This document shows positions 4,149 through 50,258 of a stretch of DNA of 64,000 nt, one piece after another; positions within the stretch are counted from its first letter, which is position 1, and every line of letters begins with the position of its first letter. Source of the stretch: Acidobacterium sp. (GTDB taxonomy: Bacteria > Acidobacteriota > Vicinamibacteria > Vicinamibacterales > UBA2999); contig NSIL01000006.1 in the NCBI GenBank assembly GCA_002737365.1, positions 62,001 through 126,000 on the forward strand, given 5' to 3'. A program made the position numbers and the translations under genes. Under the pieces are notes generated by a model, which saw only the letters and a list, made by a program, of their open reading frames with translations, was not told the DNA's origin and searched no databases.

Positions 4149-4424
4149 GTGATTCAAGCGAATAAAGTGATGCCCGCTGTCCTGGCAGAGGTCATCCGCA
4201 AGGGGCCCATGTGCGACGAGAAGGTGACGCTCGCCTGGCGCCTGGCCGTGGGACCACAGATTGCCAAGGTCACCACGGTCCGGCTGGTGCCGGACGGCAC
4301 CCTGCACATCAAGACTGACTCCCAGGCCTGGATCGACGCGGTCCGTAAGTCGACCTCCCTGATCCAGATCCGCATGGGCGACTTGCTGGGTGAGAACTTA
4401 GTCAAAAGACTTGAGTTCAGATAG
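4149..4424 (+). CDS. dciA: DUF721/DciA-like protein
   Basis: Small protein (91 residues from GTG 4149) of the DUF721 family, which includes DciA, the ancestral loader or partner of the replicative helicase DnaB. Seen: the family pattern of a central Trp (LAWRLAVGP), a 'GTLHIKTDSQAW' strand, and a C-terminal 'NLVKRLEFR' strand. An upstream GTG at 4113 is in frame, but it lies almost on the divergent FG-GAP start. The TATTCT hexamer 7 bases before 4149 argues for the shorter form. The DUF721 assignment is fairly sure; a DciA role is inferred from the family. Confidence 0.75.
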   Translation: MIQANKVMPAVLAEVIRKGPMCDEKVTLAWRLAVGPQIAKVTTVRLVPDGTLHIKTDSQAWIDAVRKSTSLIQIRMGDLLGENLVKRLEFR

Positions 4425-16572: not shown

Positions 16573-17859
16573 CTATTTCTTCTTCACCGTCGGCGGCGAC
16601 GGGACCTTACCGCCGGTCTTCAGCGAGTAGGCGCGCCGCGAGGCCACGGTCACGTTGGGCCGGTCGACCTTGACCTCCAACGCCCGCGTGCGCTTCGTCG
16701 TGTCCGGATTGCTCGAATAGAATCCGAGCAGGTAGTAATCGCTGGTCTCGGCGTCAATGCGCTTGAACTCCGAGACGTAGTCATTGGTATTCACCACCGC
16801 GAAGCCGCCGGTTTCTTCGGCCATGTAGCGCAGCGTACTGGTGGTCTTCTGGATGTGGGTGCGCCATTCACTCTGGTCGGCGAACGCCGCGAGGTCGACC
16901 ACCCCCGCCAGCCCACGCGGGTCCACCGTATACATGGTCGCGTTGGCCCGATTGGCAGATAACACCAACTCGCGCATCAGCTTGTGCAGGTCGATGTCAG
17001 CGGTGACACTGCTCAGGCGGAAATAGGGATTCTCTTCGTCATTCATCTCACGCAAGGGATCCGAGAAGCGGCCGCCCTGCACCCGGTCACGGCCCGCTCG
17101 ACCCTCGGCAAAGGGATCGAAGTCGTAACCATTGCTGATGTAGATCACGGCCTTGCGACGATTGTTGACCTGCTCCAGGTCGTTCAGGATGCTGTAAGCG
17201 GTGTAGAACGCAATCTGCGCCCGCGAACGGATGTCGGCAGGCCCCTGCGAGGACTCAAGCATCTTGAAGATCTCGGCGGGAATCAGGCCGCTGCCGCGGA
17301 TCTTGCCGACCGCTTCCATCATCATCTTCTTGTCGGCCGTCGGCCCGATGCTGATGTACGACGGCCCACTCGAGACGAGCGCGACGAGATCGCCTTCATG
17401 AATCAAGGTGTCGCCCAGGGTCTGCACCAGCTTGCGCACGTGCGGCGTCATCTCGGGATCAAAGTGGAGGTCGTCGATGAAAATCAGCAAGACGCGACCG
17501 CCGGAATCGTCGGGGCGGCGGCGGGCCGCCGGCAAGACCATGCCTTCGGGCGCGGCGATGGCCGGCCCCGGGCTCAGCAGGTTGAACGTCCGGCCCCCCT
17601 GGACCAGCGAGAACGACGTCACGACCTGCGGCACACCATCCTCGAACACGGTGAAATTCTCGCGTGTCAGGTCGGACACGAACCGGCCCTTGTCGTCGCG
17701 AGGGATGGCATCGGTGTTCACCAGCGTGACGCCGCCGCGGAACGTGGGCTGTTGGGCAAGCAATGTAGCGTCCGGTTTCAGCCGGACCATGTCCGCGCCG
17801 AGCCCAATCACCGCCAGGGCCGCCACTGTGAAAGCGCACTTCATCCCGGCAGTATTCAT
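16573..17859 (-). CDS. VWFA-related acidobacterial exported protein
   Basis: 428 residues from ATG 17859, or 423 from ATG 17844. It has a von Willebrand factor A-like domain of the type found in Acidobacteria (TIGR03436-like): ENFTVFEDGVPQ and a MIDAS-like start VLLIFIDDLHFD, then AVIYISNGYDFDPF, ATMYTVDPRGL and DYYLLGFYSSNPDTTKR. The signal peptide (MKCAFTVAALAVIGLGA) is followed by MVRLKPDAT, which is encoded by palindromic element A, so the repeat lies at the signal-cleavage region. The function of the family is not established; adhesion or protein interaction at the surface is likely. Both candidate starts lie within a 15-bp tandem duplication. Confidence 0.85.
   Translation of the reverse strand: MNTAGMKCAFTVAALAVIGLGADMVRLKPDATLLAQQPTFRGGVTLVNTDAIPRDDKGRFVSDLTRENFTVFEDGVPQVVTSFSLVQGGRTFNLLSPGPAIAAPEGMVLPAARRRPDDSGGRVLLIFIDDLHFDPEMTPHVRKLVQTLGDTLIHEGDLVALVSSGPSYISIGPTADKKMMMEAVGKIRGSGLIPAEIFKMLESSQGPADIRSRAQIAFYTAYSILNDLEQVNNRRKAVIYISNGYDFDPFAEGRAGRDRVQGGRFSDPLREMNDEENPYFRLSSVTADIDLHKLMRELVLSANRANATMYTVDPRGLAGVVDLAAFADQSEWRTHIQKTTSTLRYMAEETGGFAVVNTNDYVSEFKRIDAETSDYYLLGFYSSNPDTTKRTRALEVKVDRPNVTVASRRAYSLKTGGKVPSPPTVKKK
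17764..17790. repeat. Palindromic element family A, copy 2 (VWFA signal-peptide region)
   Basis: TGTAGC followed by the inverted repeat GTCCGG/CCGGAC (17770-17787) and CAT. It is the reverse orientation of the copy at 2888-2915 and encodes MVRLKPDAT on the minus strand. Confidence 0.8.
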
Positions 17860-17870
17860 CCCGACAGTAT
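17841..17870. repeat. 15-bp tandem duplication carrying promoter and start codon
   Basis: TCATCCCGGCAGTAT (17841-17855) is followed directly by TCATCCCGACAGTAT (17856-17870), with one difference. On the minus strand each copy ends in GGGATGA, so each offers an ATG start for the VWFA gene. Confidence 0.85.
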
Positions 17871-17878
17871 AATGTCGG
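17861..17878. promoter_or_regulatory. Palindromic bidirectional leaderless promoter
   Basis: CCGAC-AGTATAAT-GTCGG. On the plus strand TATAAT (17868-17873) lies 7 bases before ATG 17881. On the minus strand TATACT (17871-17866) lies 6 bases before ATG 17859. The two hexamers share 4 bp and are flanked by perfect 5-bp inverted arms. Confidence 0.65.
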
Positions 17879-17880
17879 CC

Positions 17881-19101
17881 ATGGAACAGACACGCCGCCA
17901 GCTTCTTGGCACCCTGGCCGCCGCCGGTGCCGCGACGCTGGTCGATCCGGGCGAGGTATTGGCCCGACTTGCCGCCAACGTCCCTTGCACCGCATCGGCT
18001 CCTGCCGGTGAACTGCTTGGCACCCTGCCGTTGTTCCGCGACCGCGCGCAGGTGCAGGCCTTCGGCGTCAAATACGGGGGCGCCGGGCTCGACGCTCGAA
18101 TGGTCACCGACCTCTCAATTCTCGAACCGGGCAAGCTGATCACGCCAAACGACTTGGCTTACATCCGCACCGAAATCCCGGCCGCCGCGGCCGCCCATAC
18201 CGGTCCGTGGACGATTGCGGCCAGCGGCCTCCTCGCCAAGGACGGCACGCTGAACCTCGATGCCATCGCCAGGCAATCGAAGGCCATGGGACCCCACCTG
18301 TTCGAATGCTCCGGCAACGCCAACCCCTCGAACTTCGGCCTGATGAGCGTCGCCGAATGGGAAGGCATCCCGCTGACGGGTATCGTCTCAGCCCTGAAGC
18401 CCACCAAGGACGCCACGGGCGTTCTGGTGAGCGGCTTTGATCACATCGGCCAGGTCTCGCAGCGCTCCATCGTCGGCGCCAGTTGGGTCTTCCCGCTGGC
18501 CACGCTCGACAAGCTGGGCGCCTTTCTCGCCGTGCGCATGAACGGTGCACCGGTGCCTGCGGACCACGGCAAGCCGGTCCGCCTGGTCGTGCCCGGTTGG
18601 TATGGCTGCACGTGGATCAAGTGGGTGAACGAAATTCGCCTGGTGGGCCCGGATGAGGCCGCGACGACGCAGATGGTGGAGTTCGCGAATCGCACGCACC
18701 AGGCCGAGCCGTTCAAGCTGGCGAAGGACTACACGCCGGCTGACATTCAGACCGCGGCCACGCCGGTGCGGATCGAGAAGCGCCGCACCGCCGCCGGCAT
18801 CGAGTACCGCATCGTCGGCATCGTGTGGGGCGGCACCAAAGCCGTCGACCGCCTGGCCATCCGAATTCAAGCCCCAGGCCCCAAGCCCCAAGCCTTCAGC
18901 GAAGTCACCGGTGAGTTCACGCCCTTCGCGGTGTGCCCGACGCCCAGGACGCACGCGACATGGAACTTGTGGGAGTACCGCTGGCAGCCGACCGCACCGG
19001 GCACCTACGACATCGCGCTGAAGGTGGCCGACCCGTCCATGCCACAGCGGCGGCTCGAGACGGGCTACTACATGCGGCAGGTGAAGGTCGAAGAGGTCTA
19101 A
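17881..19101 (+). CDS. Sulfite-oxidase-family molybdopterin protein, Tat-exported
   Basis: 406 residues starting METQ-like (MEQTRRQLLG) with a twin-arginine signal (TRRQLLGTLAAAGA), hence exported folded with its molybdenum cofactor. The oxidoreductase molybdopterin domain has the Mo-ligand cysteine in LFECSGNANPSNFG (residue about 142) and the family motifs GASWVFPL and VVPGWYGCTWIKW. A C-terminal dimerisation-type domain follows (RTHATWNLWEYRW). ATG 17872 is in frame 3 codons earlier, but the perfect TATAAT overlaps it, so 17881 is preferred. The substrate could be sulfite or another small anion. The last 4 bases overlap the convergent TPR gene. Confidence 0.87.
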   Translation: MEQTRRQLLGTLAAAGAATLVDPGEVLARLAANVPCTASAPAGELLGTLPLFRDRAQVQAFGVKYGGAGLDARMVTDLSILEPGKLITPNDLAYIRTEIPAAAAAHTGPWTIAASGLLAKDGTLNLDAIARQSKAMGPHLFECSGNANPSNFGLMSVAEWEGIPLTGIVSALKPTKDATGVLVSGFDHIGQVSQRSIVGASWVFPLATLDKLGAFLAVRMNGAPVPADHGKPVRLVVPGWYGCTWIKWVNEIRLVGPDEAATTQMVEFANRTHQAEPFKLAKDYTPADIQTAATPVRIEKRRTAAGIEYRIVGIVWGGTKAVDRLAIRIQAPGPKPQAFSEVTGEFTPFAVCPTPRTHATWNLWEYRWQPTAPGTYDIALKVADPSMPQRRLETGYYMRQVKVEEV

Positions 19102-47251: not shown

Positions 47252-49549
47252 TCACAGCATCGACAACGGGTCAACGTCGACGGCGATCGCCTTGGTCCCC
47301 TTGTTCAGCCGCGACAGCGCCAGCTGCAGGCTCTCGCGCATTGCCCTTCGGCTGGTGCCCTTCAGGAACAACTGGACGCGATGCTCGCCGCGCAGCCTGA
47401 TGAGCGGCGCGGGTGCCGGGCCCAGGACCACAAACCCCTTCGCCCCGCGGAAGCCAGTCGCGAGATCGCGAGCGGTCGCCATCGCTCCTTCGAACGTCTG
47501 GTCTCGGACGACGACGTTGACCATGGCGACCTGGGGTGGATAGCGCATGGCGCGCCGGAACTCGACTTCCTTGTCATAAAACGCGCGGTAGTCCTGATCG
47601 CACGCCAGGCGGACGCTGTAATGCTCGGGCACCAGCGACTGGATGATGGCCTGCCCCGGCCGCTCGCCCCGGCCGGCACGGCCGGCGACCTGCGTCAGCA
47701 ACTGGAATGTGCGTTCGGCCGAGCGAAAGTCCGCCGTGCCGAGGCCGACGTCGGCCGAGATGACTCCGACCAGCGTGCACTCGGGAAAATCATGCCCCTT
47801 GGCGATCATCTGCGTGCCGATCAGGACATCGATCTCCCTACGCGCCACTTGCTCCAGCATCTCGACGAGGCTGCCCCTGCGCCGCACGGTGTCGCGATCG
47901 ACGCGCGCCACCCGGGCCGCTGGGAAGGCCTCGCGTATTTCAGCCTCGACGCGCTCGGTGCCAAACCCGATGCGCTCCAGGTACGGCGCCGCGCACTGCT
48001 CGCACTGCTTCGGCACGAGCTTGGTGAAGTTGCAATAGTGACAGCGCCCTCGCCACTCGCGACCCTGCGTGTGCACCGTGAGCGTCACGCTGCAGTTCGG
48101 GCATTCCAGGCTGGCGCCGCACTGCCGGCACACCACCGCGGTGGCAAACCCGCGGCGGTTGAGCAGGATCAGCGACTGTTCGCCCTCATCCAGCCGGATC
48201 TTGATCGCCTCGCGCAGCGGCCGGCTGATCACCACTTCGGCGCCAGTGGCGGCAATCTCCTCGCGCATGTTGACGACCTGGACGCGAGCCATCGGCCGAT
48301 CGAGGACGCGCCGATTGAGCGTCACCAGGGTGTAGCGGCCTTCGATCGCATGGGTATACGACTCGAGCGTCGGCGTCGCCGATCCGATCACCACGAGCGC
48401 GTCCGCAAACTTGCCGCGCATGATGGCGACATCGCGACCATGGTAGCGCGGCGTTTCGTCCTGCTTGTACGAGGTGTCGTGTTCTTCGTCGACGATGATC
48501 AGTCCGGGATTGGCCAGCGGTGCGAACACGGCGGAGCGCGTGCCGATCACGACATCGACGGCGCCGGCGCGGATGCGGTGCCACTGGTCGTGGCGCTCGC
48601 CATCGGACAGGCCACTGTGCTGGATGGCGACCGCGGTGCCAAAGCGCGCGCGGAACAGTGCCGCCACCTGTGGCGTGAGGGCAATCTCAGGCACCAGCAT
48701 CAGCACGCCGCGCCCGCTCTGCCTGACCGCGTCGGCCAGCTGCAGGTAGATCTCGGTCTTGCCACTGCCGGTCACGCCGTGGATCAACGCCACGCGAAAC
48801 GCCCGCGCGGCCGCGAGCGGCAGCAACTGCTCCATCGCGACTTGCTGCTCGGCTGTCAGCGGCCGGCGCGATCCGCCCGCATCGGGTGTGTGCGCGCCGA
48901 CGGCATGCTCAAAGGGGTCGCGGTCCACGCGGTCGTTGCGGATGGCAACATAGCCGAGCCCGGCCAGGCGCGAAATGGTGGCAGCGACAATGCCTGCTGC
49001 TGCCAGCTCTGGCACCGGGCGGCCATCGGGCGCATCCGCCAACAACCGCAGGGCCTGCACTTGCTTCGGCCCCAGGCCCGGCAAGGTCCGGCTTCCACCT
49101 TCGCCAGGGCTTCGGCGGACAGGGAAGCCGGACGCTACATCGACGGCTGTGGTGTCCGCCTTCAGGCGGACCATGCCACGTTCGGTCAGCGTGACGACAC
49201 GAACGGTCTTGAAGCGAGCCACGCGGTTCGCCAGCCCGCGCGGCGGCAGCGCGGCCGACAGCGTCGCGCCAGGGCCGGCGAGATAGTAGTCGGAGACCCA
49301 CCCGGTGAGCTTGACCACGTCGGCCGGGACGAAGGCCTCGGCATCGAGCACCCGGACGATGTCCTTGACCTTGAAGGCGACATCGACCGCACTGAGGTGT
49401 CCGACCACAACGCCGGTCAACTGGCGCGGCCCGAGCGGCACGATCACGCGCGCGCCCGGCACGGGCATGTCCTGGCCGGAGGGGACGGAATAGGTGAGGA
49501 GGCCGAGCACTGGCACCGGCACCGCGACAGAGACGAGACGGTCGATCAC
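47252..49549 (-). CDS. priA: Primosomal replication helicase PriA
   Basis: Restarts stalled replication forks. 765 residues from GTG 49549. N-terminal 3'-DNA-binding domain (about 1-105), winged-helix region, helicase core with HGVTGSGKTE (Walker A), DEEHD (DEAH box) and IGTQMIAKGHDFP, and eight zinc-binding cysteines (CRQCG, CPNC, CHYC, CEQC). Between the first two domains (about residues 125-158) is an in-frame insertion MVRLKADTTAVDVASGFPV and following residues, encoded by compound palindromic elements. The start follows the udg stop by 7 bases. Confidence 0.95.
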   Translation of the reverse strand: MIDRLVSVAVPVPVLGLLTYSVPSGQDMPVPGARVIVPLGPRQLTGVVVGHLSAVDVAFKVKDIVRVLDAEAFVPADVVKLTGWVSDYYLAGPGATLSAALPPRGLANRVARFKTVRVVTLTERGMVRLKADTTAVDVASGFPVRRSPGEGGSRTLPGLGPKQVQALRLLADAPDGRPVPELAAAGIVAATISRLAGLGYVAIRNDRVDRDPFEHAVGAHTPDAGGSRRPLTAEQQVAMEQLLPLAAARAFRVALIHGVTGSGKTEIYLQLADAVRQSGRGVLMLVPEIALTPQVAALFRARFGTAVAIQHSGLSDGERHDQWHRIRAGAVDVVIGTRSAVFAPLANPGLIIVDEEHDTSYKQDETPRYHGRDVAIMRGKFADALVVIGSATPTLESYTHAIEGRYTLVTLNRRVLDRPMARVQVVNMREEIAATGAEVVISRPLREAIKIRLDEGEQSLILLNRRGFATAVVCRQCGASLECPNCSVTLTVHTQGREWRGRCHYCNFTKLVPKQCEQCAAPYLERIGFGTERVEAEIREAFPAARVARVDRDTVRRRGSLVEMLEQVARREIDVLIGTQMIAKGHDFPECTLVGVISADVGLGTADFRSAERTFQLLTQVAGRAGRGERPGQAIIQSLVPEHYSVRLACDQDYRAFYDKEVEFRRAMRYPPQVAMVNVVVRDQTFEGAMATARDLATGFRGAKGFVVLGPAPAPLIRLRGEHRVQLFLKGTSRRAMRESLQLALSRLNKGTKAIAVDVDPLSML
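49087..49173. repeat. Compound palindromic elements in priA (family A, copy 3)
   Basis: Arms TCCGGCTTCC (49087-49096) and GGAAGCCGGA (49123-49132) enclose a stretch rich in TTCGCC/GGCGGA. Next to it, after AGCCGGACGCTACAT (49126-49140, half of family A), lies a full copy GTCCGCC-TTCA-GGCGGAC (49154-49171). The whole block is translated in frame. Confidence 0.75.
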
Positions 49550-49556
49550 GTGGTGC

Positions 49557-50258
49557 CTACGCGTCGCCCTGGAGAATAGCGCGCACCAGCTTCATGTCGT
49601 CCCACACTTCGCGCTTCGCTGACGGGTTGCGCAACAGGTAGGCAGGATGGAACGTCGGGATCAAGGTGGTGCCGCGATAGTCGAACCGGCGCCCGCGCAG
49701 CTTAGTGATCGGGTCGGTGGTCTTCAGCAGGCACTGCGCGGCGAACTTGCCGAGCGGAACGATCACCGTCGGGTTGATGACGTCGATCTGGCGGAACAGG
49801 TAGGGTTCGCACGCCGCGACCTCGTCCGGCTCAGGATTACGATTGTTCGGCGGCCGGCACTTGATCACGTTGGCAATGTAGACCTGTTCGCGCGACAAGC
49901 CGATGGCTTCGATGATCTTGGTCAGCAGTTGTCCGGAACGGCCGACGAAGGGCTCGCCGCGCTCGTCTTCTTCCTCACCCGGTGCCTCGCCCACGAACAT
50001 CAGGCGCGCCTTCGGATGGCCGACGCCAAACACGACCTGCGTTCGACCCAGGGTGCACAGCTTGCACCGCGTGCAGGCCGGACCGATCTCGGTCTCGATG
50101 AGGTCAAGGGATTCGGTGGCGCTTTGTCCTGTGGCGTCCGCCTTCAGGCGGACCTCAGGGACCGCATCGGCCCGCGCGCGCCACTTGGCATCACGGCTCA
50201 GCCCCGTGACACCCAACTCGGCATAGTAGCGCAGGTGATCGGCAATCTCGCGTGACAT
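49557..50258 (-). CDS. Type 4 uracil-DNA glycosylase (Fe-S)
   Basis: Removes uracil from DNA. 233 residues. The family iron-sulfur cysteines are CTRCKLC and, further on, IKCRPPNN and AACEPY. Active-site motifs [17 protein letters not shown] and HPAYLLRN are complete. The N-terminal linker before the cluster contains VRLKADATG, encoded by palindromic element A (50136-50153). It lies 4 bases after coaBC and 7 bases before priA, so it belongs to the same transcript. Confidence 0.92.
50136..50153. repeat. Palindromic element family A, copy 4 (in uracil-DNA glycosylase gene)
   Basis: GTCCGCC-TTCA-GGCGGAC preceded by GTGGC. It is identical in core to the 49154-49171 copy in priA and sits in the N-terminal linker of the protein. 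Confidence 0.8.

Follow-up and report, generated by a model that had tools for sequence, protein, structure and literature searches.

Two divergent genes in the analysed stretch of DNA from an uncultured acidobacterium (64,000 nucleotides, hereafter the window) are separated by only 21 bp, and this spacer very probably holds a bidirectional promoter in which one shared -10 region would start two leaderless mRNAs at or near their start codons. The reading draws on the sequence of the element, its conservation, its spacing on both strands and a genome-wide leaderless signature, all of which we observed directly. On the plus strand, P0001 (17881-19101, 406 aa, with the Tat-type signal RRQLLG) is a predicted leaderless, sulfite-oxidase-like gene, whereas on the minus strand P0002 (16573-17859, with its start at 17859 or 17844) is a predicted leaderless, acidobacterial VWFA-domain gene. 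Domain matches (PF00174, E 1.2e-28, for P0001; TIGR03436, 155 bits vs a cutoff of 81, for P0002) show that both ORFs are real genes and agree with the identities originally predicted. The closest solved structures to P0001 are sulfite oxidases/dehydrogenases, and its profile is that of a molybdopterin oxidoreductase of the sulfite oxidase family. With SorA, SorT and SoxC it has in common a Tat-type signal and the molybdopterin domain PF00174, but its scores against the SoxC/SorT/SorA models (63.9-68.5 bits) are well under the subfamily cutoffs of 420-600, and it stands on a separate branch. P0002 is conserved as the divergent neighbour of P0001 within the genus and among some members of the family. 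Since both genes meet their next neighbours tail to tail (16571/16573 and 19098/19101), each is probably a single-gene transcript.

The spacer between ATG 17881 (plus) and ATG 17859 (minus) has the sequence CCCGACAGTATAATGTCGGCC (17860-17880) and contains an 18-bp palindrome at 17861-17878, composed of a left arm CCGAC (17861-17865), the middle AGTATAAT (17866-17873) and a right arm GTCGG (17874-17878). The putative -10 hexamer of the sulfite-oxidase-like gene, TATAAT (17868-17873, plus strand), stands 7 nt 5' of its ATG, and that of the VWFA gene, TATACT (17866-17871, minus strand), stands 6 nt 5' of ATG 17859; the two overlap by 4 bp (TATA) and thus share their -10 region in the manner of bidirectional promoters. 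The hexamers, the palindrome, the spacings and the gap are all as originally described. Both genes have a TANNNT-type hexamer at leaderless spacing (6-8 nt before the start codon), and neither strand of the 21-bp spacer carries a Shine-Dalgarno sequence. A search by eye found no -35 hexamer or TG-extended -10 on either side, and T is absent from position -18 of either predicted start (17863 is G, and the minus strand has C at 17877). The window has ~65% GC and the host genome is GC-rich; TATAAT and TATACT are accordingly rare, with 32 and 28 sites, respectively, on both strands of the 854 kb covered by our genome-wide tests (about 28% of the genome), while the exact 18-bp palindrome has a single occurrence in the 3.05-Mb genome. 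Given TATAAT on one strand, however, the preceding AG that creates TATACT on the opposite strand is expected by chance about 1 time in 16, so what truly argues against chance is conservation, which was assessed in relatives that, like the host genome, appear to be metagenome bins.

We interpret the site as a housekeeping-type bidirectional promoter. Because the 10-bp core CAGTATAATG (17865-17874) is near-symmetric, presenting TATAAT on one strand and TATACT on the other, a sigma-70-type RNA polymerase could melt the same base pairs either way round. Transcription would start at the A of the start codon, or within 1-2 bases of it, on both strands, which places the predicted starts (17881 and 17859) 22 bp apart, and both mRNAs would have no 5' leader and be translated in the leaderless way. 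The actual start points, the activity in two directions and the leaderless translation are what we infer from sequence.

A general leaderless signature is seen in the genome. Zheng et al. (2011, PMC3160421) predicted 9.7-19.4% of genes to be leaderless in three Acidobacteria, and placed TANNNT some 12 bp upstream of the start codon in bacterial leaderless genes. Counted without gene calling over the 854 kb, TANNNT peaked at 6 and 7 nt before the opening ATG of ORFs of at least 80 aa (42 and 42 instances vs ~14 at other spacings, roughly threefold), and among first-ATG ORFs of at least 150 aa the spacings of 6-9 nt gave 16, 14, 12 and 12 instances vs a background of 2.8. Shine-Dalgarno-like 5-mers showed an excess of about equal size in the first-ATG ORFs, which implies that leaderless and led genes coexist. 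The present genes resemble the leaderless genes of that study in their hexamers 6-7 nt before ATG, the lack of a Shine-Dalgarno sequence and the genome-wide signature, but differ in lying back to back with one common -10 region. Two further candidate divergent pairs were seen in the host genome, one on contig C45 with TATAAT 6 nt before both ATGs and a 75-bp gap (L048 2856-2932), and one on contig C23 with overlapping TACTAT/TATAGT in an 18-bp gap (L068 17148-17167).

Nine genomes of the same genus, including that of the window (G000), keep both genes. The overlapping hexamers and an invariant CAGTATAATG were found in seven of them (G000, G001/L003, G002/L007, G003/L004, G005/L002, G007/L005 and G008/L006), against a background of considerable divergence: at fourfold-degenerate sites of the plus gene the same seven show 43-58% pairwise identity, and the only invariant sites, 15 of 125 (12%), include no A or T. 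The AG preceding TATAAT, which only the minus hexamer requires, does not vary in any of the seven overlapped loci. Conservation of the palindrome, originally suggested as a check, thus holds for its 10-bp core and fails for its 5-bp arms, which are lost in L003, L004, L005, L006 and L007 while CAGTATAATG persists. The hexamers themselves fared better, since each gene has its own in nine of nine genomes, including two in which the promoters are split; TATAAT lies 5-8 nt before the plus-gene ATG in all nine, and the minus gene has TATACT/TATAAT 6-7 nt before ATG in most relatives. A scripted search, which required at least 5/6 identity including the key A and T, recovered a hexamer 5-8 nt ahead of an in-frame ATG at 12 of 18 loci for the plus gene and 11 of 16 for the minus gene, whereas a slid-spacing control gave 0-1 matches in each of 21 windows. 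The script stopped short of the minus-gene start codon at three loci (L002, L004 and L007) at which TATACT is visible 6 nt before ATG. The minus hexamer of L005 (G007) lies 10 nt from ATG. At L008 (2700-3001) no VWFA neighbour was found, and the plus-gene hexamer, 6 nt before ATG, has decayed to TAAAAC.

In the remaining two congeners, G006 (L009) and G004 (L019), extra DNA parts the two directions. At both loci the plus gene has TATAAT 7 nt before ATG and the minus gene has TATACT 6-7 nt before ATG. G006 is the nearest relative of the window (the plus proteins are 96% identical over 196 residues and the mature minus proteins 99.5%), and its plus site reads TGTATAAT, with AG gone, while its minus TATACT sits 7 nt before its own ATG; at L019, AG is likewise gone from the plus site and TATACT is retained on the minus side. 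Separate promoters are also found in seven distant family members (L011, L012, L026, L027, L029, L030 and L032), where the hexamer of the VWFA gene, TATAAT in all but L027 (CATAAT), stands exactly 6 nt from ATG, and that of the plus gene, at 5-8 nt, is CATAAT, AATACT or a weaker form. Across the split loci and these seven relatives, each gene's -10-like hexamer is nearly always 5-8 nt, and usually 6 nt, before ATG. Parsimony would place the origin of the overlap at the base of the genus, followed by two splits; having been split twice, the overlapped layout is not essential. Several loci with promoters apart carry tandem repeats of 7-, 8- or 9-bp units in or beside the gap (L019 2737-2884, L009 2963-2983, L026 1345-1407, L030 1380-1424 and L031 2804-2910). 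In L019 a heptamer array falls within the codons for the VWFA signal peptide, and the ATG that follows the hexamer does not share the reading frame of the mature protein; phase variation, decay or assembly error are alternative explanations. Between the window (17731-17860) and L009 (~2830-2985), most of the VWFA signal peptide and promoter has been replaced, even at 99.5% identity of the mature protein. The same signal-peptide codons in the window include a copy (17770-17787, translated VRLKPDAT) of a REP-like palindrome, GTCCGGYTTNAGCCGGAC, found also at 2891-2908, 4278-4295, 49154-49171 and 50136-50153; a search of the 3.05-Mb genome for its CTT form gave 26 exact matches vs none for a reversed control.

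The original account named the two main ATGs and overlooked two others. One is the in-frame ATG inside TATAATG (17872-17874, plus strand), which is unlikely to be the start of the plus gene because in several relatives (L005, L006 and L007) its counterpart does not share the frame of the gene. The other arises from a tandem duplication at 17840-17870 (15-bp unit, 2.1 copies, 93% match), each copy of which has an (A/T)ATACT hexamer and a start codon for the minus gene. The minus start is thus ambiguous, as the duplication supplies a second hexamer, AATACT (17851-17856, minus strand), 6 nt 5' of an alternative in-frame VWFA start codon (17842-17844, minus strand), the same spacing as that of TATACT to ATG 17859. 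The VWFA protein would begin MKCAFTV from 17844 and MNTAGMKCAFTV from 17859, and the former is closer to the MKVSLRL/MRFGFAL of relatives, so the VWFA start may be 17844 instead of 17859. The predicted starts would then lie ~37 bp apart, and if the second copy of the duplication is used, the host genome too would have partly uncoupled its two promoters. As TATACT is one mismatch off consensus, the minus direction may be weak, or AATACT may be used instead.

These features lend themselves to a one-way promoter, in which only the plus TATAAT is used, the minus TATACT reflects the self-symmetry of TATA plus chance, and the VWFA gene is expressed from AATACT/ATG 17844 or from a promoter within the plus gene. 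The self-complementarity of TATA supplies half of the minus hexamer at no cost, the duplicated AATACT is correctly placed before a start codon whose N-terminus suits the relatives better, and the 10-nt minus spacing in G007 fits as well. Such a promoter would not, however, account for an AG that serves only the minus hexamer and is nevertheless invariant in seven of seven overlapped loci, nor for its loss from the plus site precisely where the minus gene has a TATACT of its own, as in L009, or retains it, as in L019. We therefore regard one-way use as unlikely. Counted against the shared promoter are the missing -35 and TG-extended -10 elements, a predicted start distance of 22 bp that matches none of the modal values (18, 10 and 23) for E. 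coli bidirectional promoters, the lack of T at -18, the 10-nt spacing in L005 and the decay in L008.

Bidirectional promoters described by Warman, Grainger and colleagues in E. coli (PMC12825309, PMC10268837) likewise have opposed -10 hexamers that share base pairs, starts to both sides and room for one polymerase at a time. The preferred distance between their starts is 18 bp, distances of 10 and 23 bp are frequent too, and slight departures are tolerated (PMC12825309); the distance predicted here is 22 bp. A T at -18 is usual in them but not required (PMC10268837). The present site differs in that both predicted starts fall on start codons, without 5' leaders, and in that we saw no T at -18 and no conserved activator site; counts of terms in the two papers returned no mention of leaderless mRNAs. 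The original prediction took the gene pair to be mutually exclusive and the 5-bp arms to be a possible operator, and a switch of this kind, in which the overlap is selected for alternating expression, possibly with a repressor on CCGAC/GTCGG, can be weighed against these systems. Overlapping -10 elements cannot hold two polymerases at once, so steric exclusion on the core at any one moment is expected; the overlap is retained in seven of nine congeners, and in E. coli strong activation of one side does bring about competition (PMC12825309). In five E. coli bidirectional promoters, on the other hand, basal activity was too low for competition unless one side was so activated (PMC12825309), and with no T at -18 and no -35 elements, activity here may be low in both directions, a regime that leaves the claim of mutual exclusion without support. 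The overlap has moreover been lost in two congeners, including the nearest, with 96-99% protein identity, we saw no conserved regulator site in the flanking sequence, and the operator reading is rejected on account of arms that vary around an unchanging core. We consider the switch improbable; what stands of the shared promoter with two leaderless genes is the pair of hexamers sharing DNA at leaderless spacing, which conservation backs, while the operator and the exclusivity are not supported.

The arrangement recurs at other gene pairs. A search of related genomes for the pattern CAT-N5-8-ANTATAAT-N5-8-ATG returned 18 distinct places in 15 of 60 genomes, vs one match for a reversed control, and this count is too low because perfect TATAAT was demanded on one strand. 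The search was made at order level, as a phylum-wide search was uninformative (AT-rich genomes also match the reversed control). All but one of the places (17 of 18) lie between divergent ORFs, both of at least 98 aa and most with Pfam domains; six of these 17 are the present pair and 11 are other pairs, including amino acid permease/OmpA protein (L096, L102), fumarase/methyltransferase (L088), alpha-beta hydrolase/M28 peptidase (L093), M20/M64 peptidases (L104) and glycosyltransferase/polysaccharide synthesis protein (L101). The amino acid permease/OmpA-family pair has a common core, AACTATAATGG, in two species of the genus and is a candidate for a second conserved double-leaderless bidirectional promoter. 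That the core is instead a protein-binding operator or other non-promoter element, as its palindromic form and conservation might suggest, is highly improbable given its fit to the -10 consensus at a near-fixed distance to both ATGs, its splitting into two directional hexamers in relatives and the same pattern between unrelated gene pairs.

Bidirectional -10 promoters and leaderless genes are both already known, and the site presents a variant in which the two are combined at a single 21-bp spacer. Should the starts be confirmed, this would be a near-minimal spacer for two divergent bacterial genes, with the melting site and both transcription and translation starts within 27 bp (17857-17883). 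The relatives with split promoters offer a natural comparison for the constraint that a common -10 places on expression, and since start codons mark the expected starts, leaderless bidirectional promoters are easy to find by sequence and can be counted without RNA data. More broadly, and with the balance about even in our judgement, the lineage may use leaderless transcription to pack divergent genes around a ~20-bp spacer that is all promoter, in which one symmetric -10 would be the whole regulatory region, evolving by splitting into two separate leaderless promoters or by the fusion of two such promoters, and recurring at many unrelated gene pairs.
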